Below, one piece after another: positions 146 to 30,915 of a stretch of 41,643 nucleotides of DNA; within the stretch, counting starts at the first letter, position 1; every line of letters begins with the position of its first letter. The DNA lies in NCBI GenBank assembly GCA_016872175.1, contig VHBA01000016.1, positions 1 to 41,643 of the forward strand. The letters are read 5' to 3'. The notes beneath the pieces were generated by a model, which was not told the origin of the DNA, did no database searches, and was given only the letters and a program-made list of their open reading frames with translations. Made by a program: the position numbers and the translations under genes. Source of the DNA: Sphingomonadales bacterium. GTDB lineage: Bacteria; Bacteroidota; Bacteroidia; NS11-12g; UBA955.

Positions 146-814
146 TTAGCCATCCAGCACATCCAGCATTACTTTAAAAGTCCTTACGTCTTTTCCGGGG
201 AAAACAGCTTCACCCATGAAGGCAAGTAGTGCTTCTGCGAGTTTTCTACGCGTGAGCCTATCGACGACTGGGGTTTCCCTGTTACATAATTTTATTAATA
301 GTAATCGGTTATTTTCCTCTGTGATTCCGCTAGACCAACCGGTATTTAGGTAGGGTTCATCTGCATGCAGGGTAAGGCCATGACCCGCTGATTCACATAA
401 ATTGATTATGAACCTGTGCAGGAACCATAAATCTGTCTCCTTGCTGTGATAAAGACGCGAAAAATCAGTTTTAACTGTCAAAAAGAGATTTTCATCAGGC
501 ATAGAATCTGGCAAGGTGTTTCTGATGAGCTCCGTGCAAATAAGTGCCGTATTTGAAGCTATAAAATCTTCAGACATAAACGGTTCAACTGCCTTTATTT
601 CCTTTGCCCTAAGCAAATTTTGTCTTTCGGAAAAATTGAATACAATTTCTAGAAATGTGCCAGGTCTTAAAAGTGCGCTTTTCCCTTTTTTCCCTTGAAC
701 TCCTGAGAAAATAAAGGCGAGGATGCCATGTGACTGACAAAACAGATGAACTACAGCCGAGTTTTCACCGTAGGGTATTTTTTTGAGAACCAGGGCTTCT
801 GTTTTTATCAGCAT
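146..814 (-). CDS. recO: DNA repair protein RecO
   Basis: A 222-aa protein starting MLIKTEALVLKKIPYGENS, the standard opening of RecO, whose N-terminal OB fold covers about residues 1-80 and is followed by an alpha-helical domain. RecO works with RecR and RecF to load RecA onto SSB-coated single-stranded DNA in gap repair. The length is slightly below the usual 230-250. The helical part lacks the four-cysteine zinc site seen in some RecO proteins. The ATG overlaps the stop of the upstream PD40 gene in a TGATG arrangement at 812-816, so translation is probably coupled. I see no separate promoter. Confidence 0.85.
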   Translation of the reverse strand: MLIKTEALVLKKIPYGENSAVVHLFCQSHGILAFIFSGVQGKKGKSALLRPGTFLEIVFNFSERQNLLRAKEIKAVEPFMSEDFIASNTALICTELIRNTLPDSMPDENLFLTVKTDFSRLYHSKETDLWFLHRFIINLCESAGHGLTLHADEPYLNTGWSSGITEENNRLLLIKLCNRETPVVDRLTRRKLAEALLAFMGEAVFPGKDVRTFKVMLDVLDG

Positions 815-1887
815 CAGTCAATCCAGTCGGCAATAAACAGGTTGGTAGCCCTGCCTCCGCCATTGTTTCTGTTTGACGAAAAAATCAATTGTCTTCCGTT
901 TGGGGAAAACATGGGGAAGGAGTTGAATATACTTTCTGTTGTAATCTGTTCAAGATGGCTTCCATCCTTATCAATCATAAAAAGCTGGAAGTCGTATCCG
1001 CGTTTGCTTTTATGGTTGCTGGAGAAAATGATTTTTTTGCCTCCCGGGTGGTAAAACGGAGCCCAGTTGGCTTTGCCAAGTGCTGTAACCTGTTTGATGT
1101 CGGAACCATCCACATTAATGGTATAGATTTCCATGTTCGTAGGTTCAACCAGATTGCGGGACAGAAGCTCTTTATATTTCGCAATATCTTCTTCGGTTTT
1201 GGGTCTGCTGCTTCTGAATACTATTTTTTTACTGTCTGGGCTGAAAAAAGCACCTCCATCATAGCCAAGGCCGAAAGTTAGCTGCTTCTGGTTGCTGCCA
1301 TCAATATTCATGATCCACAGTTCCAGATCACCACTCCGGGTGCTGGTAAAGACAATTTTTTTACCATCGGGTGAAACTGTGGCTTCTGCATCATAGCCGG
1401 AGTCGGTGGTAAGTCTTGCGGTGATATTGCCCTTTAAATCTGATACAAAAATGTCATATCCGGTATACAGTGGCCAAACATAAGCTCCTTTTGTTTCAGG
1501 AGGTGGTGGACAGTTTTTGTTTTCGAGGTGGGTACTGGCAAATAATATATGCTTGTTGTCAGGCATGAAATAGGAGCATGTTGTTCTGCCTTCACCTGTT
1601 GAGATTAGGTTCGGGATATAGCCGGAGTCTCCAAATTGGGAAATTTTTGATGTGTAAATTTGATCGCATTGCACACCCCAGGCAGTGTTATTACTTTGAA
1701 AGGTAACTGATTTGCCATTGAAACTCCAATAGGCTTCTGCGTTATCACCACCAAAAGTCAATTGTCTGATGTTCAGCAAGTGTTTTTCTTCTTTGCCGGA
1801 AGGAATTGTAATATGCTTTTTTCTGTTTACGCAGGCTGCAAATATTGCAATAAGGCCAAACAGCAGGGTAATCCTAAACATGAGCAT
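814..1887 (-). CDS. PD40/TolB-like beta-propeller lipoprotein
   Basis: A 357-aa protein with a hydrophobic signal segment ending in a lipobox (IFAAC, Cys19), so it is predicted to be a lipoprotein. The rest is a series of WD40-like PD40 blades: repeats of SPDGKKIVFTSTRSGD and FSPDSKKIVFRSSRP type, each pairing an SPDG/SPNG turn with an I-x-F-x-S-x-R strand. Such TolB-like propellers bind peptides or sugars in the periplasm, but the partner cannot be deduced here. Upstream at 1909-1902 (minus strand) a TAACTTCG box may act as a promoter. It precedes recO with a 1-nt overlap; a functional link is not obvious. The first of two in-frame ATGs is used. Confidence 0.75.
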   Translation of the reverse strand: MLMFRITLLFGLIAIFAACVNRKKHITIPSGKEEKHLLNIRQLTFGGDNAEAYWSFNGKSVTFQSNNTAWGVQCDQIYTSKISQFGDSGYIPNLISTGEGRTTCSYFMPDNKHILFASTHLENKNCPPPPETKGAYVWPLYTGYDIFVSDLKGNITARLTTDSGYDAEATVSPDGKKIVFTSTRSGDLELWIMNIDGSNQKQLTFGLGYDGGAFFSPDSKKIVFRSSRPKTEEDIAKYKELLSRNLVEPTNMEIYTINVDGSDIKQVTALGKANWAPFYHPGGKKIIFSSNHKSKRGYDFQLFMIDKDGSHLEQITTESIFNSFPMFSPNGRQLIFSSNRNNGGGRATNLFIADWID

Positions 1888-1945: not shown

Positions 1946-2980
1946 TTATTTTAGCAATTCCCAGGCAATTTTTGGATAGCCTTTCTCACCTTTGTCATTA
2001 TAGAAATCCACGAAACGCATTTTGAAATAATTTCCTTTTGCATCCAAGATGATAAATATTTTCTTTTGGTTTACTGTGTACTTATTGGCTGTCAGGCTCC
2101 AGGTTTTCCAGTCATAGCCAATTTCATTTAGAAAATCGCTCAGGATGAGGGCTTTTGCATATTTGAGATCGATAGTATTAAAGTCCACAATGTTATTTAG
2201 TTCCAACACTTTTACCTTATTGGGATTGGTTAAAACTCCACGCAATATGTATGGCAAGGTTGTACCCAAAGTTTCTTCAGTTACAGTTTGTTTATAGGTG
2301 GTAATAACCATATCCCAGTTATCGCGGGTGAACGGTTCGTTAAAAACCTCTTTTTCACTTGAGAAGCTATAGTATGCGTAATTATAATCATTTTTTGCAC
2401 TTATATAAACATCATGAGGTATGGTATCTGTTAGTATGCCCCACTGGAAATGATAGGAAGCACCTTCTCTGCCCAGCATTTTCAGCTTGATGAACTTTTT
2501 GGAACCGAGAGAGTCGACACCTCTATTTATAATGTAGAGCCGGTCTTTGGGTTTTGCTTTTCCCATTTGGTAGCTTTCCCACCAACCTGAAAAAGAAAGA
2601 GAATCAGAATGGCCGTTTGGATTATCAAAAGTCCATTCGTATTTGGAAACATCAATAAAACGGAAATCCCTGAAGTTTGTGCCCTCCGAATAGGTTACAC
2701 CATAGTTACTGTGTTTACCTGTATTGATAATTATGTTATTTTTTTCGCTCCAAGAGAATGCAATGTCCCAGAGGCCAAAGGCATTTGACGCCGTTTTTTG
2801 GGTCGAAAATTCAAACCAAAGCTGATTTTCATAATTTTCCCCCATGGCAAATGTGGCAGACTGTGTTCCAATAGGCACATCCGGCGCGGAGTATAGCCGC
2901 TCATCCTTTTCACATCCTGATATTGTGAAAAACAATATCAGTAATCCCATCCACAAGCTATATGTAATAAAGTGCCTCAA
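1946..2980 (-). CDS. HmuY-like lipoprotein, probable haem-binding
   Basis: A 344-aa predicted lipoprotein: a hydrophobic N-terminus followed by lipobox TISGC (Cys23). Residues 47-76 carry MGENYENQLWFEF, then a GLWDIAF segment, matching the HmuY pattern of a strand pair around a W-D-I-A-F motif; a second copy-like segment (DNWDMVITTY) follows near residue 240. HmuY is a surface lipoprotein that captures haem and passes it to the TonB receptor HmuR in Porphyromonas gingivalis. The start is TTG, overlapping the stop of the TonB-receptor gene as TTGA (2977-2980), so it is the distal gene of the uptake operon. The ligand is inferred from family and context; haem-coordinating residues were not identified. 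Confidence 0.72.
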   Translation of the reverse strand: MRHFITYSLWMGLLILFFTISGCEKDERLYSAPDVPIGTQSATFAMGENYENQLWFEFSTQKTASNAFGLWDIAFSWSEKNNIIINTGKHSNYGVTYSEGTNFRDFRFIDVSKYEWTFDNPNGHSDSLSFSGWWESYQMGKAKPKDRLYIINRGVDSLGSKKFIKLKMLGREGASYHFQWGILTDTIPHDVYISAKNDYNYAYYSFSSEKEVFNEPFTRDNWDMVITTYKQTVTEETLGTTLPYILRGVLTNPNKVKVLELNNIVDFNTIDLKYAKALILSDFLNEIGYDWKTWSLTANKYTVNQKKIFIILDAKGNYFKMRFVDFYNDKGEKGYPKIAWELLK

Positions 2981-5250
2981 TTTATATCGTAACTAAACCT
3001 TAAAAACAGGGTTCTTCCGGGTGTAATATTTACATTCATACCTTGCTCGGAATGTGGTGTCAGGTTGCGTCTGGTGGAAGCAAGCGTGGTAACCCCAAGA
3101 ATATTTTTTACCCCACAGGAAATATTCAGTCCTGCTTTTGGAAAAGCCTTTTGTGCTGTCAAATCCAGCAAATAGAAACCTGCAGTTCTGTAGCGTTCGT
3201 TATTTTCCATGTAGCCTATGGTTGGACTCGTATATCTGCTAAAAAGAGAAACAGAAGCCTTTTGCGATCCGAATTTACGTGTAAGATTGAATGCAAATTG
3301 CCCGTTCAGATAAGCACTTTGATTTACAGAGTCTGCCTGCTCTAGTAAGTCATAAACAGTCAGCAGCGTACCAGACAGCTGCATGGTGAATTTTTGGTTG
3401 TGAAATTCGAAATTGGTGCTGAGACCCTGAGAGCGAAAGCGCCCTATATTGATGTAGGTGTAGTAATTGGTATTCAAGTCAATCAATGCAAGGTTGATTT
3501 TATTTCTGATTATGTTGTTAAACAAAGAAAAGCTGAAGATAGCACCAGATGTACTTGAAAATGGGTGTCTGTAGTCGAAGGAAAGGATGAAATTATCAGA
3601 AATTTCTGCCTTCAAACTGTCGTTTCCGTGTACGTTGTGGCTCATGTCAACAAAGTAAAAGTTGAGTTCCTTTAGAGAAGGAGCCCTAAAACCTTTGGCA
3701 TAGCTACCGCGGAAAGAGAGATGTTTAGATAAATTGTATTTAAGTTGCAGTGACGGAATTAACGGAGCCATTTTAATTCTGTCGCCGAATACAGAGGTTA
3801 TAATTGGATTACCAAACCTTGAATTGTGTAAAATGCGCAGTGATGGCCTGACTTGCCATTCTCTGCTAGGTGAGTATTCCATGGCGCCAAAAACTGCTAC
3901 GTCAGTAATACCGGGCAATTGGGCCGGAATGCGCTTGCCCAGCGCAGTTTCTCTCATAAGATCATATCCGATTGTCCATGATACAGGGTTTACAGGGTTT
4001 CTGAAGGTGTAAACACCACGTGAATTGAACATAGTGAAAACAGAGGTGTCCTGATCCTCAGGTCTATATGGCGTTTCAGCACCGGTCACCAAATTTCTTT
4101 TTATGGTATTCTTTGATCTGTTGAAATAATTGAAGGCGTTTTGCCATTCAAACCGGCTAAAAGTATTAATTTTAAATACGGAATGAATGGTATTGTCAAG
4201 ACGTGTAGTTGCGTAAACGGAGTTATACCCTGTAACATTGGCAAGGCTGTATTCGGCATCGCTGCGGTCTGTTAATTTTTCCTGAAACAGAGAAGTTGTA
4301 ATGCGGTGGTTGCTGTTTTTAGTGTTAAGGAACAATGAAGCATCCGCAAATTGTTTGCTTTTGGGTTTCCAGTCAAAACTGCGGGTTTCACTATTGAAAT
4401 CCCTTCCCGCAAAATAATAACGACCTGCATTCATGGTAAAAGGCATCTTTTTATGCATTTTCCCTGTAACATTCACATCGTAATTGTAATTGCTGAACGC
4501 CGTCATATAGTCGTGAAATACGCTGAGGCGCGTGTTAAAGCGCTGGTTGCCCGGATTTTTGGTAATGACATTGATTACTCCACCGAGCGCATCGGTTCCG
4601 TAAACAACGCTCATAGGCCCTTCGATAATTTCTATCCGTTCCACATTGCTTAAAACGATTTGCCCCAGGTCCACATTGCCGTTTATCCTTCCAATTACAG
4701 GTATACCGTTAATTAAAATTTTAATATCCTGTCCTCCAATACCTTGCATAATAGCATTGCTCCCCATTACGGCGTCTTGCCCCACCTGAATATTGGCTTC
4801 GTTGAGTAATAATTCACCAAGATTCTGGGCGCCCATTTGTGCAATTTTCTCTTTGGGTATAACCCTAATCAGGTAAGGATTGTCAGCAATGGCTCTTGGT
4901 CCGGTCGCACCGGTAATGGTTACCGGATTTATGAGTAGGTTTTTTTGTTTTAAGGTGACAATAATTTGATTGTCCAGTGCAGTAAACGTGCCTTCAAAGC
5001 CTGACATGGAATCAGAAGGTGAAATAACTGTTAGCTTGAAAGCTCCGCTGTTGTTAAGAAAAAATTTGCCATTTGTATCTGTCTTGCCTATTTGCAATGA
5101 TGCCTGAGGCCTGAAATCAGCCAGCACATCTGCGCCGACTATGGGTTCGCCTTCTTCATATATCAAAATAATACTGCGTTGCTGGGCAAACACAGTTGAA
5201 AACCCTGTTAAAAGGACTATTAAATAAAATATGGTTATCTTTCGGTGCAA
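2977..5250 (-). CDS. TonB-dependent outer-membrane receptor (HmuR-like)
   Basis: A 757-aa protein with signal peptide (cleavage after VFAQ, about residue 23). It has a carboxypeptidase-regulatory-like N-terminal domain (about 25-105), a plug domain (about 115-235, with a LIRVIPKEKIAQMGAQNLG stretch, GGQDIKILINGIP, and VERIEIIEGPMSVVYG ending in GGVINVITK) and a long beta barrel ending in the aromatic FLRFSYDIN. Such receptors import haem, iron complexes or cobalamin with energy from TonB. The flanking HmuY-like genes argue for haem or a related porphyrin or iron ligand. The start is TTG at 5250, 3 nt after the stop of the T9SS HmuY-like gene, and the end overlaps the HmuY lipoprotein gene by 4 nt. 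Confidence 0.9.
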   Translation of the reverse strand: MHRKITIFYLIVLLTGFSTVFAQQRSIILIYEEGEPIVGADVLADFRPQASLQIGKTDTNGKFFLNNSGAFKLTVISPSDSMSGFEGTFTALDNQIIVTLKQKNLLINPVTITGATGPRAIADNPYLIRVIPKEKIAQMGAQNLGELLLNEANIQVGQDAVMGSNAIMQGIGGQDIKILINGIPVIGRINGNVDLGQIVLSNVERIEIIEGPMSVVYGTDALGGVINVITKNPGNQRFNTRLSVFHDYMTAFSNYNYDVNVTGKMHKKMPFTMNAGRYYFAGRDFNSETRSFDWKPKSKQFADASLFLNTKNSNHRITTSLFQEKLTDRSDAEYSLANVTGYNSVYATTRLDNTIHSVFKINTFSRFEWQNAFNYFNRSKNTIKRNLVTGAETPYRPEDQDTSVFTMFNSRGVYTFRNPVNPVSWTIGYDLMRETALGKRIPAQLPGITDVAVFGAMEYSPSREWQVRPSLRILHNSRFGNPIITSVFGDRIKMAPLIPSLQLKYNLSKHLSFRGSYAKGFRAPSLKELNFYFVDMSHNVHGNDSLKAEISDNFILSFDYRHPFSSTSGAIFSFSLFNNIIRNKINLALIDLNTNYYTYINIGRFRSQGLSTNFEFHNQKFTMQLSGTLLTVYDLLEQADSVNQSAYLNGQFAFNLTRKFGSQKASVSLFSRYTSPTIGYMENNERYRTAGFYLLDLTAQKAFPKAGLNISCGVKNILGVTTLASTRRNLTPHSEQGMNVNITPGRTLFLRFSYDIN

Positions 5251-5253
5251 TAG

Positions 5254-6564
5254 TTATTCAATCACCAGTTTTTGGGTAAAAAGCCGTTTGCCTGATTGAA
5301 TCTGCAGAAGGTAAATGCCGGCGGGAATCTTTTCGGCTGAAATCGTATAAACATTCCATGAAGATTCGGCATTCAAGGACTGAGAAATAATTGATTTACC
5401 ATCGAGCGATTTAACGGATACAACACAGGATTTAATCTTTGGCATATCCAGTGTGAGGTAAAATATTTTGGAAGCAGGATTAGGGAATACTTTTACTGTC
5501 CCAAAAAAGTTGTCCTTTACAGACAGACTATTACGAAGCTGCATGCGGCTAAATTTGATTTTTCCGCTGGAAGAGCCGGAAAATCCGGTCATATACATGA
5601 GCCAATAGGATGTGTCTGATGGTCTGATTCTTTCAATTAGGTAGCTCATGGTGTCGCTCAGTGACCAAGTGCCACTGAATGTTTTCCAACCAGAACCAAT
5701 GCCGGTGAGATCATTTTTAAAAGACTTTGTGTAATTGCCCACCAGCCAGTTGCTGTCGGGAGTAATACTGTTAACCGGCTTTCCAAACACTTTTGAAGTG
5801 CGGGTTCCACGCTTGCTTTCGATGCCCATTACCGCGTACATTTCTGGTATGCCTGTCATAGGGTTGGGGCTAAGTTCAAAATATCGGTTAAAGCTGATAT
5901 CCCAGTCGGTGGAAACCGGCTCTCTGTTTGGCTTGGCAGTACCTATGAATTTGAAATATTTGTACATTTTGCCGGCGGCGGCGGATTGGAAAAGTGTATC
6001 GGTTGTTTCTCCGGTTCCGTCGAGATTGGCATATTTGAAAACCAAATCACCATTGGCTTTTTGCACCACTGGCCAAAATTTCACAAATTTGGTATAGGTT
6101 CCTTTGGCAGTTCCTTCCCAAGCGAGCAGGTAGAGTGAATCTCCGGTTACTTCTTTTGAATTAACATCGTAAGTTCCCCATCCAAACTTCCACTTGGACA
6201 TGTCGTTGTATAAGTTGAAGGCACCTTTGTTGTGGTCATGGATATCATTCCAAAGAAACGACCATGTTTTCCAACCTGCAGTGTCAAAAGTAGACCATGC
6301 ATCGGTTTTCCCTTTAGGATATTGGATTACGCGCAGGCCGCTCATGTGGTTGGCACGGATGCTGTTATCGCGGCTTACCGAAGTATGGGCTATATCCCAG
6401 TTGTTGACGGAAGCACTGTTTTTAGCGCCGGTTTTGATATCATAAAATATTTGATTGGCGTAGCCCGGACCCATGATGGCTGAGTCATTCAGGATTGCCT
6501 GGGCAGAGATGTTTCCCGCAGTCAACGCAAATAGAGCGGATAAAATCCGGAGGATGTATTTCAT
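5254..6564 (-). CDS. HmuY-like protein with T9SS type A sorting domain
   Basis: A 436-aa protein with a signal peptide (cleaved near NISAQA, residue 22) and a C-terminal T9SS type A domain from about residue 359 (VFPNPASKIFYL to GIYLLQIQSGKRL and FTQKLVIE). The central part aligns by eye with the HmuY-like lipoprotein at the other end of the operon: MGPGYANQIFYDI against MGENYENQLWFEF, NNWDIAH against GLWDIAF, and TDWDISFNRYF against DNWDMVITTY. It is therefore probably a hemophore-like binding protein exported across the outer membrane by T9SS and either anchored or released. It is the first gene of the operon, with a promoter box at 6598-6591. The specific ligand is inference. Confidence 0.7.
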   Translation of the reverse strand: MKYILRILSALFALTAGNISAQAILNDSAIMGPGYANQIFYDIKTGAKNSASVNNWDIAHTSVSRDNSIRANHMSGLRVIQYPKGKTDAWSTFDTAGWKTWSFLWNDIHDHNKGAFNLYNDMSKWKFGWGTYDVNSKEVTGDSLYLLAWEGTAKGTYTKFVKFWPVVQKANGDLVFKYANLDGTGETTDTLFQSAAAGKMYKYFKFIGTAKPNREPVSTDWDISFNRYFELSPNPMTGIPEMYAVMGIESKRGTRTSKVFGKPVNSITPDSNWLVGNYTKSFKNDLTGIGSGWKTFSGTWSLSDTMSYLIERIRPSDTSYWLMYMTGFSGSSSGKIKFSRMQLRNSLSVKDNFFGTVKVFPNPASKIFYLTLDMPKIKSCVVSVKSLDGKSIISQSLNAESSWNVYTISAEKIPAGIYLLQIQSGKRLFTQKLVIE

Positions 6565-6590: not shown

Positions 6591-6598
6591 CAAAATTA
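6591..6598 (-). promoter_or_regulatory. -7 promoter box for the HmuY/TonB operon
   Basis: The minus strand reads TAATTTTG, a perfect match to the Bacteroidota -7 consensus TAnnTTTG, ending 26 nt before the ATG at 6564. I do not find a convincing -33 TTG at the usual spacing. No Fur-like palindrome is obvious in the 180-bp divergent region shared with hscA. Confidence 0.5.
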
Positions 6599-6745: not shown

Positions 6746-8608
6746 TTGGCAAAAATCAGCATAAATATAAAGTCTGGTACTTTAGAAAAAGAAGGTCTGG
6801 TGGTGGGCATAGATTTGGGTACTACCAACAGTCTTGTGGCAATGATAAACCCGGATACCGGTAAACCGGAAATTCTTGGTAAGACAGATGAATTGATGGT
6901 TCCTTCTGTGGTTCACATTACCCACGACGGTATTCCGGTTGTAGGCTCTGCAGCACGTCAGGCGTTGATCTCACACCCGGAAAGCACCATTTTCTCGGTA
7001 AAGCGGCTGTTGGGAAGGAGCTACAAAGATGTTGAGGCTCATGCCCCTTATTACACCTATCGTATTTTGGATGAAGCAGACGAAAAGTTGGTTCGTATTG
7101 AGGTCAATGGCAAATATTTTACCCCAATTGAACTGAGTTCAGAAATTCTAGCGGAACTCAAAAGAAGGGCAGAAGCGATAACCGGTAAATCTGTCAGCCG
7201 CGCTGTAATTACTGTGCCTGCATATTTTAATGACAGTCAGCGACAGGCAACCCGTGATGCAGGGAAGATGGCGGGTCTTGAAGTGCTCCGCATCGTGAAT
7301 GAGCCCACAGTGGCAAGTCTTGCTTATGGCCTGGGATTAAATAGCAGCGAGGCTAAAACCATTGTTGTCTATGATCTGGGCGGCGGAACTTTTGATGTTT
7401 CAGTGCTTCGTATAGAAGATGGGGTTTTTGAAGTACTGAGTACGCAGGGAGACACCTATTTGGGGGGTGATGACTTTGATAGAGAAATTGTAAGACACTG
7501 GATAAAGTCGCTACCTGAAAATATACATTCAGATGCCTTTAAATCCCTTCGTCTGCTTGCTGAAGAAGCTAAAAAGCAGGTTTGTGGAGGAGGGGTTTTT
7601 GAAGAATTATTTAACCATGTCGACGGCCAATACAAGCTAGCGCTGGATTTCAATATTTTCGAATCTTTAACCACACACCTGTTGGATAAAACCATTCAAT
7701 GTCTACAAATGGCGCTGAGTGATGCTCAACTTAGCTATGATGAGGTTGATGAGGTGGTTATGGTGGGTGGTAGCACGCGCATGCCTTTTGTGAAGCAACG
7801 TTTGGTAGATTTGTTTGGTCATATAAAAGTGAACGATACCTTAAATCCGGATGAAGTAGTGGCTTTGGGCGCGGCAGTTGAGGCAGATGTGCTGGCAGGC
7901 AACAGAACGGATATTTTGCTTCTGGATGTTACTCCGCTGAGCTTGGGAATAGAAACACTGGGCGGGTTAATGGATGTATTGATTCCACGAAACACCAGAA
8001 TTCCTTGCAAATATGTGAAAAACTACACCACTTCCGTTGACGGGCAGGTCAAGATGAGTATTGCCGTATATCAGGGAGAGCGGGAGCTTACCGCCGAAAA
8101 CAGAAAACTGGGAGAATTGCTGCTGACCGGTATTCCCGCCATGCCTGCCGGAATGCCCAAAATCGAAGTAGCTTTTTTACTTAATGCAGACGGAATATTG
8201 ACCGTAGAAGCAAAAGAAATGAGAAGTGGCGTTCAGCAACATATTGAAATTAAACCTCAGTATGGTTTATCTGATACTGATGTAGAGCGAATGCTGCTGG
8301 ATAGTTTGAGTAATGCCAAGGATGACGTTGCAAGACGCATGCTTGTAGAGGCCAGAACGGAAGCAGAGCAGATGATTTACACAATCACCCGGTTTTTGGG
8401 AAAAAATGCAGCCTTACTTAGCGATGGTGAAATAAAAGAAACCCTTGAGCTTTGCAATTCTCTTAAAACTAAACTTGTAAATTCGGACAAGGACACAATA
8501 CTTCAGGGTGTTGACGCGTTAAATGAATTTACAAGGCCTTTTGCTGAAAGGTTAATGAATAAAGCTGTGTCTTCAGCATTGCAAGGATCACATATTGATA
8601 AAGTATGA
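6746..8608 (+). CDS. hscA: Hsp70-family Fe-S assembly chaperone HscA
   Basis: A 620-aa Hsp70 with all ATPase signatures: GIDLGTTNS (21-29), a YDLGGGTFDVSVL phosphate-2 segment and VVMVGGSTRMPFV, followed by the substrate-binding domain with LLLDVTPLSLGIETLGG. It lacks the Gly/Met-rich tail of DnaK. Its opening MAKISINIKSG and length fit HscA, the chaperone that helps transfer Fe-S clusters from the IscU scaffold. The start is TTG at 6746; no in-frame ATG lies upstream, a purine-rich GAAGGGA occurs at 6728-6734, and the protein start fits the family. No iscU, hscB or fdx is adjacent. It overlaps the next gene by 4 nt (ATGA). A specialised DnaK paralogue is the alternative. Confidence 0.82.
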   Translation: MAKISINIKSGTLEKEGLVVGIDLGTTNSLVAMINPDTGKPEILGKTDELMVPSVVHITHDGIPVVGSAARQALISHPESTIFSVKRLLGRSYKDVEAHAPYYTYRILDEADEKLVRIEVNGKYFTPIELSSEILAELKRRAEAITGKSVSRAVITVPAYFNDSQRQATRDAGKMAGLEVLRIVNEPTVASLAYGLGLNSSEAKTIVVYDLGGGTFDVSVLRIEDGVFEVLSTQGDTYLGGDDFDREIVRHWIKSLPENIHSDAFKSLRLLAEEAKKQVCGGGVFEELFNHVDGQYKLALDFNIFESLTTHLLDKTIQCLQMALSDAQLSYDEVDEVVMVGGSTRMPFVKQRLVDLFGHIKVNDTLNPDEVVALGAAVEADVLAGNRTDILLLDVTPLSLGIETLGGLMDVLIPRNTRIPCKYVKNYTTSVDGQVKMSIAVYQGERELTAENRKLGELLLTGIPAMPAGMPKIEVAFLLNADGILTVEAKEMRSGVQQHIEIKPQYGLSDTDVERMLLDSLSNAKDDVARRMLVEARTEAEQMIYTITRFLGKNAALLSDGEIKETLELCNSLKTKLVNSDKDTILQGVDALNEFTRPFAERLMNKAVSSALQGSHIDKV

Positions 8609-9333
8609 AGCGCAAGGCCATTATATTGGTGAGTTTTTTGAGTTGTGCTTTTGTAAATGCACAAACGTGGACAGATGCAGAAATGCTAGAGCGGCAGAAT
8701 TATGGATTGAAACTGGGTTTGAACTTTACCTCAATGTGGGGTGGTGAACTGCAGAATCCCTGGCCATATTTTGGCCCGACTGCGGGGTTTTTCTGGCACA
8801 CCAAAGAAACAAAAAAGCCATTTATGTTTCAGACAGGTTTTGAAGGTAGTTTGAGGGGCAGCAACTTTGCCAATAAAAGCACTGATTTTCCGGGTGGGGG
8901 TAATACCAACTACCGCCGTATTGGCCTTATTACGGCAGATGTGCCAATACTGCTTAATTATCGACTGGGTCCAAAGAAAGAAAACCGAACACGTGTAATT
9001 CAGGCCGGTGCAATGGTTTCTGCAACCATGAGAAGCACAGTTTATCTCGGTGAAGATAAATTACCGGCACAGCACTTTCTGGATAGCACAAGCCATTTAT
9101 ATCAATGGGATAACCTTCCGCTAAAACCCATAGAATTTTTAGCGGTTATAGGTTACCAAGACCGCGGAATCTCTGCAGGCTGGCAAGTTCAATTGCAAGT
9201 TGGCATCAATAATCTGAATGACGTAAAAATAAAAAACGGGAATATAATTCCGTTTATGCCTTATGCATATCCGGCAACCAATACCGGTAAACGTATTAGC
9301 ACCTGGAACCTAAAGTTCAGTGCACTGTTTTAG
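8605..9333 (+). CDS. PorT-like outer-membrane beta-barrel protein
   Basis: A 242-aa protein with a signal peptide (cleavage after CAFVNAQ, about residue 20) and alternating amphipathic strands typical of the outer-membrane barrel family that includes PorT: YGLKLGLNFTSMWGG near the start, YRRIGLITADVPILLNYRLG in the middle and an aromatic ending ...LKFSALF. PorT itself is needed for T9SS, but the family is large and this member may have another role. Translation is coupled to hscA through ATGA at 8605-8608, a pairing that does not obviously reflect a shared function. No T9SS core genes are in the window. Confidence 0.65.
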   Translation: MKRKAIILVSFLSCAFVNAQTWTDAEMLERQNYGLKLGLNFTSMWGGELQNPWPYFGPTAGFFWHTKETKKPFMFQTGFEGSLRGSNFANKSTDFPGGGNTNYRRIGLITADVPILLNYRLGPKKENRTRVIQAGAMVSATMRSTVYLGEDKLPAQHFLDSTSHLYQWDNLPLKPIEFLAVIGYQDRGISAGWQVQLQVGINNLNDVKIKNGNIIPFMPYAYPATNTGKRISTWNLKFSALF

Positions 9334-9354
9334 GGCTTTGCAATGCGTTTTGCT

Positions 9355-9362
9355 TAATTTTG
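9355..9362 (+). promoter_or_regulatory. -7 promoter box for mtaB
   Basis: TAATTTTG matches TAnnTTTG and ends 8 nt before the ATG of mtaB at 9371, implying a leader of only a few nucleotides. A TTTG lies at 9337-9340 but with a short 14-nt spacer. Confidence 0.45.
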
Positions 9363-9370
9363 CTGATTGA

Positions 9371-10681
9371 ATGGCACATTCGGTGGCTTTTTATACCCTG
9401 GGCTGCAAACTCAACTTTGCTGAAACCGGAACCATAGGCAAGCAATTGACCGATAATGGTTTTGTGCGTGCTGAGTTTACTGATGGAGCTGATATGTATG
9501 TAATCAACACGTGCAGCGTTACGGATCATGCAGACCGCAAGTGTAAAAAAGTAGTGGCAGAGGCGCTTCGCTACAATCCCAATGCTTATGTGGTTGTGGT
9601 GGGTTGCTATGCACAGCTTAAGCCTGTTGAGATTTCACAGATTCCCGGTGTGGATATGGTGCTTGGCGCCGCTGAAAAGTTTAACCTGATGGCTCATCTG
9701 GGTGAATTGAGCAAGGAATCAAGTGCGCGGATTTTGAATTCACCTATAAAAGAAACCCGAGACTTTGTGCCCGGTTTCAGCGAAGGTGAACGAACACGTG
9801 CCTTTGTGAAGGTGCAGGACGGTTGCGATTATTTCTGTTCGTTTTGTACTATTCCTTTGGCTCGTGGCAGCAGTCGTAGCGCCAATATTGAAGAGACGCT
9901 TGAAAAGATAAAACAGGTTGCAACCGGAGCAGTGCGTGAAATTGTGCTTACCGGTGTGAATCTGGGAGATTTTGGTGTGAATCAAGGCGAAGATTTCTAT
10001 GGTCTGGTTAGGGAACTTGATAAACTGGAAACGGTTGAACGGTTTCGCATCAGCAGTATTGAGCCCAACCTGCTCAGTGATGAAATCATAGATTTCGTAT
10101 CACAATCAAAGCGGTTTGTTCCGCATTTCCATATCCCACTGCAAAGTGGCAGCGATGAGATTTTGGGCAGAATGCGTCGCCGTTATAAGACATATTTATA
10201 CAGGAGTAGAATAGAACAGATTTTGCAACGAATGCCTCATTGCGCTATTGGTGTGGATGTTATTGTTGGTTTTCCTGGTGAAACAGAAGAGGAGTTTTTA
10301 AAGACCTATCATTTTCTAAATGAGCTTGAAATAGCTTATCTGCATGTGTTTCCATATAGTGAGAGACCTAATACCACAGCTAAAAAAATGCAGGGGCGTA
10401 TTCCTCAGTCTGTGAGGCATGAACGGGTAAGTATGTTGCGCACACTTAGCGAGAAAAAACGGCAGGCGTTTTACAGAAAGCATTTGGGCACCACCCGAAC
10501 CGTGCTGTTTGAGGCCGAAGAAAAAAGCGGGTTTATGCATGGTTTTACGGATAATTACATCAAGGTAAAGGCTACCTACGATCCATTGCTGGTGAATGAA
10601 ATGGCAGATGTTTTACTGGAAACCATGAACGAAGATGGGACAGTTAGCGGTATGCTTGATTTAGCGATTGTGCATCACTAA
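9371..10681 (+). CDS. mtaB: tRNA t6A37 methylthiotransferase MtaB
   Basis: A 436-aa radical-SAM methylthiotransferase. The N-terminal domain has the three cluster cysteines (Cys12 in GCKLN, Cys48 in NTCSV, Cys79 in VGCYAQ); the radical-SAM motif is CDYFCSFC (Cys152, 156, 159); a TRAM-like C-terminal domain covers about 375-436. The FVKVQDGCDYFCSFCTIP stretch and the GCKLNFAETG opening are typical of MtaB, which makes ms2t6A37 in tRNAs reading ANN codons, rather than MiaB or RimO. It is followed after 9 nt by an Lgt-like gene. Confidence 0.88.
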   Translation: MAHSVAFYTLGCKLNFAETGTIGKQLTDNGFVRAEFTDGADMYVINTCSVTDHADRKCKKVVAEALRYNPNAYVVVVGCYAQLKPVEISQIPGVDMVLGAAEKFNLMAHLGELSKESSARILNSPIKETRDFVPGFSEGERTRAFVKVQDGCDYFCSFCTIPLARGSSRSANIEETLEKIKQVATGAVREIVLTGVNLGDFGVNQGEDFYGLVRELDKLETVERFRISSIEPNLLSDEIIDFVSQSKRFVPHFHIPLQSGSDEILGRMRRRYKTYLYRSRIEQILQRMPHCAIGVDVIVGFPGETEEEFLKTYHFLNELEIAYLHVFPYSERPNTTAKKMQGRIPQSVRHERVSMLRTLSEKKRQAFYRKHLGTTRTVLFEAEEKSGFMHGFTDNYIKVKATYDPLLVNEMADVLLETMNEDGTVSGMLDLAIVHH

Positions 10682-10690
10682 TTTGCGAAC

Positions 10691-11884
10691 GTGTTTCCAA
10701 CGCTATATCATTTTTACAGGGATATGTTCGGAATTGAGATTCCGGCCCTCCAAATCCTAAATACATTTGGTTTTTTTGTTGCATTGTCAATCGCGGGTGC
10801 TTTCTGGGCAATGTCGGCAGAAATGCGCAGACGGACAGTATTGGGGCAATTTCAGTCTGTGGAGGTGAAAACCATTAAAGGTACTGCATATCCTATTTCT
10901 GATTATATCCTGAATGGTTTTTTTGCTTTCATATTCGGATACAAAATTCTATACCTAATGTTTCCCGCTGAGGCGAATTTTGTTCCACAGGAGCATATTT
11001 TCACGTCAGAGGGAAGTGTGTTATTTGGTTTGATTTCGTTGCTGGTTGTGCTGGGATGGAGATATTACGGTGATAAAAAGCAGCGTCTGCCTGAGCCGCA
11101 AATAGAAATCCAGACTCAGTCTGCCGAATGGCATATGGGTAATATTACCACGGTGGCCTTGCTGTCAGGGTTTGCCGGTGCAAAACTGTTTCATATTCTG
11201 GAAAATCCCTCCGGTTTAACTTTTACAGCTATTCTGGATGCGTTTTTCAGCACCGGCGGCTGGACATTCTATGGCGGGCTGGTTTGCGGTGCTGCAGGGG
11301 TTTTGGTTTATTGCAAACGCAAAGGCATCAGTTTATTGCGAATGCTGGATGCAGGAGGTCCTGCCATGATGTTGTCCTATGGAATTGGACGCTTTGGTTG
11401 TCAGTTTTCAGGGGATGGAGATTGGGGAATAGCCCATACAAGCCCTAAACCATTTTCCTGGCTCCCTGACTGGGTATGGGCCTACAGATACCCGCACAAT
11501 GTACTTGGCGGACAATCTGGTGGATATGCACCGGAAGGAATGGTCCCAATTACAGGCTGTGAAGGAGATTATTGCTATCAGCTGGCTGTTCCTGTTTATC
11601 CTACGCCGCTGTATGAAGCATTGCTGGGGTTGATTTTGTTTTTTGTTTTATGGAAGGTGTTGCGCTTTAAAAGCCAGGCGCCAGGTAAATTATTTGCCTG
11701 GTATATGGTATTTGCCGGCGCAGAAAGATTTTTAGTGGAAACTATCCGTGAGCATGGAGACAGCCTTTACAGACTTGGTTCTCTTGTGTGCTCACAGGCA
11801 CAGTTGATTTCGTTTTTTTTAATGCTCATAGGCGCATGGTGGTTGTTTAAAAAACAGCCTGCTTCTACAATAAAACCGGTGTAA
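10691..11884 (+). CDS. Lgt-like prolipoprotein diacylglyceryl transferase family membrane protein
   Basis: A 397-aa polytopic membrane protein with about seven hydrophobic segments. Residues 228-246 contain a motif close to the Lgt signature: SYGIGRFGCQFSGDGDWG, where classical Lgt has G-x-IGR-x-GNFINxE. Lgt transfers diacylglyceryl to the lipobox cysteine of prolipoproteins. This protein is longer than classical Lgt (about 260-290) because of an N-terminal extension and a loop near residues 130-145, and it belongs to a second Lgt-like group found in Bacteroidota. The Asn after the motif Gly is Cys, so activity should not be assumed. The start is GTG at 10691; MFPTLYH fits the group. Confidence 0.7.
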   Translation: MFPTLYHFYRDMFGIEIPALQILNTFGFFVALSIAGAFWAMSAEMRRRTVLGQFQSVEVKTIKGTAYPISDYILNGFFAFIFGYKILYLMFPAEANFVPQEHIFTSEGSVLFGLISLLVVLGWRYYGDKKQRLPEPQIEIQTQSAEWHMGNITTVALLSGFAGAKLFHILENPSGLTFTAILDAFFSTGGWTFYGGLVCGAAGVLVYCKRKGISLLRMLDAGGPAMMLSYGIGRFGCQFSGDGDWGIAHTSPKPFSWLPDWVWAYRYPHNVLGGQSGGYAPEGMVPITGCEGDYCYQLAVPVYPTPLYEALLGLILFFVLWKVLRFKSQAPGKLFAWYMVFAGAERFLVETIREHGDSLYRLGSLVCSQAQLISFFLMLIGAWWLFKKQPASTIKPV

Positions 11885-12466: not shown

Positions 12467-13414
12467 TTATTTTTTGCGAAGTATAATCCAAAGAACTGCC
12501 GGTGCGCCCATGATGGCGCAAACTGCGTTGGTTGGTAAAATTATATCATTCAATGCATGATGGGCAACCCAATCAGCCAGCATACACAAAGTCATACCGC
12601 ATAAAAGAGTGGGAAGCCATAAAGTACCGTGGTTATTGCTTTTCATGAGACCGCGGGCAATATGTGGGGCAATCATTCCCACGAACCCAATAGGACCACA
12701 AAAACCGGTAATGGCACCTGCTGTTAATCCTACAAGAATCACAACAATTATACGAAATTTGGATATATCCATACCTGCTGAGGTTGCGTATGTGTCGCCG
12801 GGCAAATAGGTGTCCAATTTAAAGCGAAGAAACCATAATGCAGCTGTGGAAACCGCTACAATTGAGCCAATTAGCGGTATTTCTTTCTGCTGCACACGGT
12901 CGAATCCCCCCAATCCCCACATTATAAAACTTTTCACTTGTTCGGCCTGAGCCAGTCCTTGCAGAATTTCACTGCCTGCGCCAAGCAGATAACCGAGTAG
13001 CACACCGGAAATAAGTAAGGTAAAAGCATTGCCATGTCTCCGCTGAATAAGGATTTGTAGCAATAATACGGCCATACTGCCTGCCATGCCTATTGCAGCA
13101 ATGCCGGCACTTTGCATCCAACCGGCAGCAAAACCGGCCGGAAATGCCATGAGAAATATTGCAACAGCGAATGAAGCGCCCGGAGTTGCACCTGTCAGGA
13201 ATGGTCCGGCCAGCGGATTTCTAAACAAGGTTTGCATAGCAAGGCCGCTAACTGAAAGCCCGATTCCGGTAAGCGCGGCAGCCATTACCCTGGGAAAACG
13301 AAATGCAGTAAATACTTCATCCTTCATGTTGATGTCGCCGGCCGAAAAATCCAGCCAAAAAAGCGATGCACTTAGCAGTAACAGGATGATAACTATACCG
13401 TTGTGTTTCTTCAT
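12467..13414 (-). CDS. FecCD-type iron/cobalamin ABC transporter permease
   Basis: A 315-aa integral membrane protein of the FecCD/BtuC family with about 8-10 hydrophobic helices. Recognisable stretches are RFPRVMAAALTGIGLSVSG, AGPFLTGATPGASFAVA and, near the C-terminus, GFCGPIGFVGMIAPHIARGL, the cytoplasmic coupling segment that contacts the ATPase. It imports iron-siderophore, haem or cobalamin from the periplasm. It overlaps the binding-protein gene by 4 nt (ATGA, 13411-13414). No ATPase gene follows; the next gene is convergent. The substrate cannot be fixed from sequence alone. Confidence 0.85.
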   Translation of the reverse strand: MKKHNGIVIILLLLSASLFWLDFSAGDINMKDEVFTAFRFPRVMAAALTGIGLSVSGLAMQTLFRNPLAGPFLTGATPGASFAVAIFLMAFPAGFAAGWMQSAGIAAIGMAGSMAVLLLQILIQRRHGNAFTLLISGVLLGYLLGAGSEILQGLAQAEQVKSFIMWGLGGFDRVQQKEIPLIGSIVAVSTAALWFLRFKLDTYLPGDTYATSAGMDISKFRIIVVILVGLTAGAITGFCGPIGFVGMIAPHIARGLMKSNNHGTLWLPTLLCGMTLCMLADWVAHHALNDIILPTNAVCAIMGAPAVLWIILRKK

Positions 13415-14550
13415 TTCAATGCTTCAAAGAAAACAAGTTCCTGTTCTTCGGGTGCCAGGCCGGGATGGAAAATATGCACAAGGTCCCGAAGAGCCAGATC
13501 AGGGCGCACTACAGCATAGTCCCACCAAGCGTTGCCGCCATATTTATTGAGTGTTTTAGTTGAATTGTACACTCCGCCATCTTTGATTGCGCTGAAACTT
13601 TCCAGCCTGCGGTCTGCTGAGGTAATACATGCAATATTTCTACAAGCACCCGGATTGATCCAAAAGTCTGCATCTTTAGCTCTACGGTAAACAGTTTCTA
13701 TATCGAGTGAGATTTTACCTGTTCCTTCTTCGTTTTTCCAAAAATAATCTGCTCCTGCATCCCTGAGCAAAGCTGCCATATAGCTTCCACCGGCAGGAAC
13801 ATCCCAGTTTCCGCTATACGGTGCATTGCAAAATACGGTAGGTTCCTGTTGGCTTGCCTCATTAACATCATTAACCAAAGCCAGATAGTGTTCCTCGACC
13901 ATGTTGAAATAAGCTTCTGCTACATCAGGCTTACCCGTAAGCCAACCAAGCACCTTAAGCCATTCAGCCCTTGCCAGCGGATGGTTTTCCAGGTAGTTCT
14001 GTAAGAACAAAACCGGAATGCCTTGCTGTGTAATCGCATTCCATTCTTTTTTGCCCTTGTTGTCAATAAAATAGGTCAAAACCATATCCGGTTTGCTCTT
14101 CATTAGTTTTTCCCTGTCGAGTGAAACACCTTTTGTGGCCTCTGTTATATTGCTTTTGGCAAACCATTTTCTGCAATTTGGTCCGGTGTGATATTGAATA
14201 TTGTCCGTGCAGCAAATGCGTGTTTCGGTGCCCAGCACTTCCATCATGCCTGAAAAGACAGCGGTCATACATGCGATACGTTTTCGCCTGGAGATTTTCA
14301 TACAGCCAGTGGGAGTGGTGCCATTTCCTAAATATGCAATCTGCATCCATTGTGATGTGTCAGCAGGGTTCCTTAAAGCAATGAAAGAATCTTTTCCGGA
14401 AGTGCCCAGAAGAAACAGCCGGCTGTAGTCTGCTTGCTGCCAATGAACATTGGCAGGCAGAGCAGCTGACTTTTTATTTTGGCATGCAGAAAACTGCGAA
14501 AGCAGAATAAGTGAAAACGTTATGTGGATCAGCAACCTCAAGGGTTGCAA
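13411..14550 (-). CDS. Iron/cobalamin ABC transporter substrate-binding lipoprotein
   Basis: A 379-aa predicted lipoprotein (lipobox QFSAC, Cys23) of the cluster A-II (BtuF/FepB) type with two lobes. SLDREKLMKSKPDMVLTYF, IPVLFLQNYLENHPLARAEWLK and a C-terminal RPDLALRDLVHIFHPGL are hallmark segments of these periplasmic binding proteins. It delivers ligand to the permease encoded next. The ATG at 14550 lies inside the end of the hydrolase gene (13-nt overlap). Cofactor or siderophore specificity is unknown; the haem-type operon at 2-6.6 kb is a possible outer-membrane partner, but this is inference. Confidence 0.82.
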   Translation of the reverse strand: MQPLRLLIHITFSLILLSQFSACQNKKSAALPANVHWQQADYSRLFLLGTSGKDSFIALRNPADTSQWMQIAYLGNGTTPTGCMKISRRKRIACMTAVFSGMMEVLGTETRICCTDNIQYHTGPNCRKWFAKSNITEATKGVSLDREKLMKSKPDMVLTYFIDNKGKKEWNAITQQGIPVLFLQNYLENHPLARAEWLKVLGWLTGKPDVAEAYFNMVEEHYLALVNDVNEASQQEPTVFCNAPYSGNWDVPAGGSYMAALLRDAGADYFWKNEEGTGKISLDIETVYRRAKDADFWINPGACRNIACITSADRRLESFSAIKDGGVYNSTKTLNKYGGNAWWDYAVVRPDLALRDLVHIFHPGLAPEEQELVFFEALK

Positions 14551-29477: not shown

Positions 29478-30454
29478 TATCGTATTATTTCTATAAGCTG
29501 TCTGAAAGTGCCTTCCGGCGTGGAAATGACTATGCAATACATACCGGTATGTTGGGGTATTTTCAATGTGTTTTGTTTATTTTGTACATTCCATGATACA
29601 ATTTTATTGCCTGAAATACTATACAACGTTGCGATACCTTGTTGATTAGAGTATACATTGATTTCAGCATTGTATAATGGATTGGGCCCTATTTTAATAG
29701 ACGAACTGTGCCGGGCGTTGTTTTTCTGAATAGACACTTTTGCGTGGATGACACCCACTGCATCCAAATCAAAACCACCCGATGAAAATCTTGTTGGCCA
29801 TGGATCATTGATTTTATTCCCTTTGGTATCTCGGGTTGCAAAATCAGGCAGCATACTGCCTACAACATCAATGATTCTTACATGGGTAATGGATGAAATA
29901 TCAATTCCAGCCGAGTCTTTCAGTTCTTCCAGGTCGAAGGGGGTACCGAATCCTACGCGGTATTTGCCGGCCAGGTTATTGATTTTTTCCGGAAAAGTAT
30001 ACCCAAACGCCGGGGTTTGTTTTGATGTATCGGTGAAACTAATGGCCGGAAACCGCACAAATCGTTTTCCATCGCTGCTTATTTCTACAAATGCCAGTTC
30101 CAGGAAGGTGTCGAGAAAACTATTTTCAAAAACGGCAAAATCCCAGCCGGGGCCATTGGTGATGGGAGATTCGAATGTGAGTGTGGCCGTACCCCCGTCG
30201 CCCAGACTTACAATGCCGTTTTGCATGGCTTGTCCCAGGGCAGATTGCGCCGCGCCTGCACCTGCAAAGCCGCTGTCTGGCTGCGAAATATCGCGGTAGC
30301 CACGAATAACATCACATCCCGTTGCCCAGGAAATGAAGCAAGTGCTGTCGTGTTTTAAAGCAGTACTGCCGGGTTTGCCCGCTGCCGGCGCAAATTGGGC
30401 GTGTGCATTGATTTTTGAAAAAAACAGAAGAAAATAGAATAATAAAATTCTCAC
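29477..30454 (-). CDS. T9SS type A sorting-domain cell-surface protein
   Basis: A 325-aa protein with a signal peptide (cleaved near INAHAQ, residue 20) and a C-terminal T9SS domain (about 250-325, KIGPNPLYNAEINVYSN to GMYCIVISTPEGTFRQLIEI). The middle contains GWDFAVFENSFLDTFLELAFVE and FSSGGFDLDAVGVIHA (each broken here at 20 residues), a pattern seen in Bacteroidota cell-surface proteins, often near TonB receptors. No receptor is adjacent here. The start is GTG at 30454, overlapping the stop of the nucleotidyltransferase gene as GTGA. The ligand is unknown. Confidence 0.75.
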   Translation of the reverse strand: MRILLFYFLLFFSKINAHAQFAPAAGKPGSTALKHDSTCFISWATGCDVIRGYRDISQPDSGFAGAGAAQSALGQAMQNGIVSLGDGGTATLTFESPITNGPGWDFAVFENSFLDTFLELAFVEISSDGKRFVRFPAISFTDTSKQTPAFGYTFPEKINNLAGKYRVGFGTPFDLEELKDSAGIDISSITHVRIIDVVGSMLPDFATRDTKGNKINDPWPTRFSSGGFDLDAVGVIHAKVSIQKNNARHSSSIKIGPNPLYNAEINVYSNQQGIATLYSISGNKIVSWNVQNKQNTLKIPQHTGMYCIVISTPEGTFRQLIEIIR

Positions 30455-30915
30455 GACTCAGAATTATTTTGAAGGCCCTCAATATCTGCGATGTCTTGTG
30501 CCCTTCCGGTCATTATTTTAGATTCAATCAAGTGGTTTTTATGGATAAATGGGATATCAAGTTTCTCTATTTTAACTGCAGTTTTAGCCTCCCACGCTTT
30601 CGACCATTCAACACCATTGATATGTGTTAGAAAGTCAATTCTACTGGGTTCTTCACCAATATGAAATGCAAGGTGCGATTCAAAATTTAAGGATTTTAAA
30701 TACAGGATATCTGTTTCCTCTATTTCTAATTTATTAAAGGCCTCTATTAATTTTAATTTATTTTGATTATCCGGTTTCAGCCACAAATCAACGTCCCCAG
30801 TTGTGCGGCGGTAGCCATAAAAGTTTACAGCAAAACCACCAACTACAAGAAATTCGACATTGTCTTCTAGTAGCAAAGCCAAAACTTCAATATGTTCATC
30901 TTGGAAGATATTCAT
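30451..30915 (-). CDS. Nucleotidyltransferase-fold protein, toxin-like
   Basis: About 154 aa from the ATG at 30915, with the nucleotidyltransferase signature FLVVGGFAVNFYGYRRTTG followed by DVDLWL: a Gly-Gly pair and a D-x-D for two metals, as in the AbiEii/MNT-type families. A C-terminal half includes RIDFLTHINGVEW and KNHLIESKIMTGRAQDIADI. It resembles toxins or their modifying enzymes in toxin-antitoxin pairs, but activity is not shown. Preceded by a small gene that overlaps it by 20 nt. A longer frame to 30987 opens upstream but would overlap most of that gene. The DNA is AT-rich compared with its neighbours. Confidence 0.75.
   Translation of the reverse strand: MNIFQDEHIEVLALLLEDNVEFLVVGGFAVNFYGYRRTTGDVDLWLKPDNQNKLKLIEAFNKLEIEETDILYLKSLNFESHLAFHIGEEPSRIDFLTHINGVEWSKAWEAKTAVKIEKLDIPFIHKNHLIESKIMTGRAQDIADIEGLQNNSES

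Follow-up and report, generated by a model that had tools for sequence, protein, structure and literature searches.

Described HmuY systems and the locus analysed here

Descriptions of Hmu systems have so far paired a single HmuY protein with a single receptor. In P. gingivalis, the Hmu system comprises the HmuY lipoprotein, the receptor HmuR and HmuSTUV, in a haem-auxotrophic host. F. psychrophilum carries a receptor gene followed by a HmuY-family gene in one operon (HfpR-HfpY), with a DoxX-family gene in between and a single HmuY-like protein described. HfpY binds haem despite very low similarity, and HmuY-family members other than P. gingivalis HmuY use other ligands (PMC9331221). F. columnare C6N29_01035 combines a HmuY domain with a Por_Secre_tail and is secreted by the type IX secretion system (T9SS); in the accessible part of that report it appears singly, no lipoprotein partner or cognate receptor is described and its deletion caused no growth defect (PMC9618737). 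In P. intermedia, hmuY-2 adjoins the gene of a T9SS type A sorting-domain protein and both are induced >100-fold without iron (PMC10434189). The initial annotation of the present locus assumed one hemophore per known system; this matches the descriptions of one HmuY protein beside one receptor but is too loose as a rule, because a second HmuY locus exists in P. intermedia, and one of the two lies beside the T9SS protein (PMC10434189).

We analysed a 41,643-nt stretch of DNA (hereafter the window), which is a single contig of a Bacteroidota genome (2.26 Mb, 98.7% complete). As in P. gingivalis, a HmuY-fold lipoprotein adjoins a TonB receptor with a haem-receptor signature in a host that appears to be haem-auxotrophic. 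However, the operon adds a second HmuY-fold protein with a T9SS tail, its lipoprotein gene lies behind the receptor gene, it contains no hmuSTUV genes, the core of its HmuY-like proteins is ~300 residues compared to ~190 in HmuY, and the haem ligand His166 is not kept. The order of receptor and then HmuY-family gene is shared with HfpR-HfpY, and the T9SS-tailed protein resembles C6N29_01035 in joining a HmuY-like part to a T9SS tail. The P. intermedia hmuY-2 locus likewise places hmuY next to a T9SS sorting-domain gene but has no receptor between them. In the open-access papers searched, we found none that describes two differently exported HmuY paralogues on either side of one receptor. The new element is thus the pair of differently exported HmuY paralogues per receptor, whilst F. 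columnare had already provided an example of a HmuY with a T9SS tail by itself.

A TonB receptor gene between two genes with different predicted export signals

The three genes at 1946–6564 lie on the minus strand at the positions first annotated. Transcription order places the gene for the T9SS-tailed protein first (gene 1, T9Y; 5254–6564, 436 aa), the TonB-dependent receptor second (gene 2; 2977–5250, 757 aa, Plug and barrel) and the HmuY-family lipoprotein last (gene 3, LIPO; 1946–2980, 344 aa). Genes 1 and 2 are separated by 3 nt and genes 2 and 3 by −4 nt, a layout from which we expect a single transcription unit. A candidate promoter on the same strand, TAATTTTG (6591–6598), lies 26 nt ahead of the gene 1 start. 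It matches the Bacteroidota −7-type element at the level of sequence only, and the pattern occurs 19–25 times per strand in the window.

The initial annotation had one of the flanking proteins ending in a T9SS sorting domain and the other carrying a lipobox, and both features were confirmed. T9Y carries a signal peptide and, at its C-terminus, a T9SS type A sorting domain (residues 359–435; 5260–5490, minus strand; PF18962, E = 5.8e-11) that scored above the cut-offs of both PF18962 and TIGR04183, as expected of T9SS type A cargo. The domain was present in all 62 T9Y homologues, and in the AlphaFold model the tail resembles the mirolase CTD (8qb1, Z 11.6). T9Y is therefore predicted to be a secreted or surface-attached, hemophore-like protein. 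In LIPO, the lipobox ISGC is followed directly after C23 by EKDER (2900–2923, minus strand), which matches C-X-K-(D/E)2-X, the optimal surface lipoprotein export signal defined in Capnocytophaga (PMC5080379). Among 74 LIPO homologues, the Cys was invariant, Lys at +3 occurred in 69 and Asp/Glu at +5 in all 74, and the Cys together with a C-X-K/R-(x)-D/E N-terminus was found in 71. LIPO is accordingly predicted to be a surface lipoprotein.

The hallmarks of an Hmu-type receptor, namely adjacency to the HmuY-like gene, FRAP and NxxL motifs and an L7 histidine, were all present in gene 2. Its loop contains FRAP (521–524), His538 and GNDSL (542–546) (3613–3690, minus strand), and FRAP, His and NxxL in that order form the signature of haem/haemoglobin receptors (PMC9331221). 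His538 was conserved in 62/66 receptor homologues, as was His733. The product of gene 2 is thus predicted to be a haem receptor.

Both flanking proteins share the HmuY fold in structural models

Genes 1 and 3, initially judged to be related by eye, are homologous. The motifs MGPGYANQ, WDIA and WDIS in T9Y correspond to MGENYENQ, WDIA and WDMV in LIPO; BLASTP aligned the two proteins across 272 columns (E = 4e-7), and profiles built from 29 homologues per protein aligned with a probability of 100 across 298 columns (hhalign, E = 7.6e-44).

A profile search against the HmuY family, proposed with the initial annotation, placed LIPO within it and missed T9Y. LIPO residues 200–340 (1961–2383, minus strand) matched PF14064 at 50.9 bits (cut-off 27), as did 74/74 LIPO homologues at E ≤ 0.01, and the LIPO profile retrieved solved HmuY proteins from the PDB (8b6a, 1.3e-8; 3h8t, 6.9e-7). 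The window's T9Y had no PF14064 match at E ≤ 1 and did not reach the curated Pfam cut-off, and we therefore label it a HmuY-fold protein and LIPO homologue, not a Pfam HmuY member. Yet 28/62 T9Y homologues matched PF14064 at E ≤ 0.01 (best 2.8e-10), and a T9Y profile from a larger alignment retrieved the same PDB entries (8b6a, 2.4e-4; 3h8t, 0.013). A rejection of T9Y as HmuY-like on Pfam alone was overturned by these profile and family-wide comparisons together with the structural one.

AlphaFold2 models had a mean pLDDT of 92.7 for LIPO (74 sequences in the input alignment) and 89.2 for T9Y (62 sequences). Unrelated folds did not appear. Using VIA-align, the best PDB match of LIPO was HmuY 3h8t (Z 14.1, 139 residues, 2.9 Å) and that of T9Y was HmuY-family protein 3u22 (Z 14.0, 137 residues, 2.8 Å). 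The top eight rows for LIPO were all HmuY-family (Z ≥ 11.5), followed by a DUF4466 protein (Z 8.9); the top six for T9Y were HmuY-family, followed by sorting-domain matches led by the mirolase CTD. A Foldseek search with the full T9Y model had returned mostly Ig-like hits on the sorting domain, along with poor whole-length superpositions, and the VIA realignment resolved this. Both proteins thus have the HmuY fold as modelled.

The two halves of LIPO are mutually related (hhalign, E = 1.5e-6), which suggests an old internal duplication. LIPO is probably not a plain tandem of two HmuY domains, since its structural match to HmuY spans residues 36–344 and the fold seems to use both ends.

Conservation and phylogeny of the pair

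In the GTDB family of the window, LIPO homologues occurred in 66/70 genomes and T9Y homologues in 69/70, covering all 14 genera, with a few of these hits being the sister form or the sorting domain alone. The distance between the two genes was usually ~2.3 kb, the receptor lay between them in nearly all fully read loci and gene order was kept in most of the 14 genera. The arrangement was also sought across Bacteroidota. Among 80 loci returned by a LIPO profile search of named genomes, at least 61 had the order T9SS-HmuY, receptor, HmuY-lipoprotein. The three genes were contiguous in 46, extra same-strand genes lay between T9Y and the receptor in 13 and two had other inserts. A further ten were cut by contig ends, five had LIPO outside this neighbourhood, one was unscored and three were scored as lacking T9Y, of which two (L111 and L119) do hold it. 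Hosts included Brumimicrobium, Taishania, Cryomorphaceae, Prolixibacteraceae, Bacteroidales and a Kapaibacterium MAG, although the naming of some MAGs is doubtful. Across 296 sampled genomes of the phylum, 29 had a member, many of them with one form only.

When a maximum-likelihood tree was built from 136 cores without their tails, one branch with a support of 100 parted T9Y from LIPO, and this single split makes recurrent local duplication unlikely. Both forms are kept in Flavobacteriales, Bacteroidales and the Kapaibacterium MAG. By this phylogeny, T9Y and LIPO are an ancient paralogous pair.

Haem as the probable substrate

Four lines point to haem: the HmuY fold, the receptor signature, linkage to ABC transporter and HemS genes in relatives, and missing haem synthesis genes. 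With regard to linkage, the operon at locus L136 runs T9Y, periplasmic binding protein (HmuT-like), FecCD permease, HmuV-type ATPase (290 bits, cut-off 261), HemS/ChuX, receptor and LIPO. At L133 the order is T9Y, HemS/ChuX, binding protein, FecCD, an opposite-strand frame, receptor and LIPO, and gene sizes at L135 are similar. The window operon has no ABC or HemS genes, and HemS was not found in the window's genome.

With regard to synthesis, HemB, HemE and HemH were not found in the window's genome (98.7% complete), yet this genome encodes a haem-copper oxidase (COX1), such that haem import looks obligatory. HemB and HemH were also missing from 68/70 family genomes, several of them incomplete; the same two genomes have both. 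HemB is required by every known haem route, and the family should consequently depend on imported haem. Together, these gene absences suggest family-wide haem auxotrophy. In other lake lineages haem auxotrophy is already recognised (Kim et al. 2021, as cited in PMC9878933 and PMC12381374). The only FecCD permease of the window's genome is encoded with a periplasmic binding lipoprotein at 12467–14550 (minus strand), ~6 kb from the haem operon.

A proposed two-protein haem-uptake operon and its alternatives

The likely function of the operon is haem uptake, with two anciently diverged HmuY-fold paralogues, exported by different routes, serving a single TonB receptor. T9Y would leave the cell through the T9SS, either to be shed or to stay on the outer surface, and would capture haem, or take it from haem proteins, at some distance. 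LIPO, a lipoprotein with a surface-export signal, would sit beside the receptor, acquire haem from T9Y or directly, and load the receptor, which would import it with TonB. That each protein binds haem, that transfer runs in this direction and that the two have separate roles is what we infer from these data. The two-tier capture system suggested in the initial annotation is supported in part, by the modelled fold of both proteins, the two conserved export signals and the gene order kept across Bacteroidota. The fuller proposal, a relay from T9SS-released hemophore to surface lipoprotein hemophore to shared receptor that sustains a haem-auxotrophic lake family, is put forward tentatively, its chances falling a little short of even. 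Against the haem-uptake reading as such count the replacement of His166, the lack of a family-wide His or Met, the failure of the window's T9Y to match Pfam HmuY, the genomes with one form only and the lack of ABC and HemS genes in this operon and of HemS in the genome. In the profile alignment, His166 of P. gingivalis HmuY pairs with Leu296 of LIPO and His134 falls outside the alignment, such that neither axial ligand was recovered in LIPO. Neither the LIPO family nor the T9Y family has a His or Met conserved throughout. However, HfpY binds haem at very low similarity, so ligand loss is not decisive. If the proposal is right, the operon offers a molecular haem-uptake route for an environmental lake family apparently unable to make haem. 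With two export routes in an ancient and widely retained pair, the question of free versus anchored hemophores would also become directly testable within a single operon.

The strongest competitor, though an unlikely one, is that only T9Y is a hemophore and that LIPO is a receptor-bound lid or co-receptor, like SusD or BtuG, carrying no haem. The close association of LIPO with the receptor fits this, in that its gene overlaps the receptor gene (−4 nt) in many loci, implying translational coupling, and its signal anchors it at the surface. So does the distribution of candidate ligands, since LIPO is without a conserved His or a family-wide Met and close T9Y homologues keep four His (His60 and His73 in 20/20, His109 in 17 and His111 in 16). 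Nevertheless, it is LIPO that has the stronger HmuY match of the two, ligands vary within the HmuY family, such that a missing conserved His leaves haem binding possible, and four LIPO genes (L148, L158, L160 and L163) stand without a neighbouring receptor.

It is more doubtful still that this architecture serves to import a tetrapyrrole other than haem, or an iron complex, with cobalamin or a siderophore as examples. The window receptor scored about equally against the NCBIfam models TIGR01779 (B12) and TIGR01785 (haem), both far below cut-off, and the nearby FecCD permease is closest to the FhuB and BtuC models, as would be expected if haem were not the substrate. This is opposed by the FRAP/His/NxxL signature of the receptor, the linkage to HmuV and HemS/ChuX in L136 and to HemS/ChuX in L133, the modelled HmuY fold of both proteins and the missing haem synthesis genes. 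An Rfam scan of the window and six related loci found no family at cut-off, cobalamin riboswitch included. Finally, it is highly improbable that the HmuY pair represents a redundant tandem duplication with no division of labour; duplicated lipoproteins do exist, as in L072, but the deep split is single, both forms are kept in the lineages named above and distinct export signals are fixed in each.

Neighbouring genes and variant loci

Returning to the proposed haem-uptake operon, a PD40/TolB-like beta-propeller lipoprotein is encoded just downstream (814–1887, minus strand) and in 30/73 related loci. It is a possible accessory protein, and its position recalls that of the BtuG propeller beside BtuB. 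Divergent from the operon lies an Hsp70 gene (6746–8608, plus strand), and genes of similar length occupy this position in many relatives. Elsewhere in the window, a second reading frame (29480–30457, minus strand) has an end resembling a T9SS tail (E = 1.3e-6).

In genus g4, genes downstream of the operon considered as an ABC transporter were actually DHH phosphoesterase, FKBP and sugar-nucleotide genes, and hence unrelated to the operon. One locus of this genus, L088, has a histidine kinase and response regulator pair (Pfam-confirmed) directly ahead of the operon (9304–11194), which is possibly a haem sensor; other g4 loci have same-sized genes at this place. Variants of the operon itself were also observed. 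L072 carries two tandem HmuY lipoprotein copies behind a single receptor (7013–9124). In L124 (Brumimicrobium), gene 1 is separated from the receptor gene by a DUF6607 gene (4676–5593), and L137 has a DUF6686 gene (3825–4154) just ahead of the receptor; these positions link the two unstudied families to a haem-uptake-like operon.
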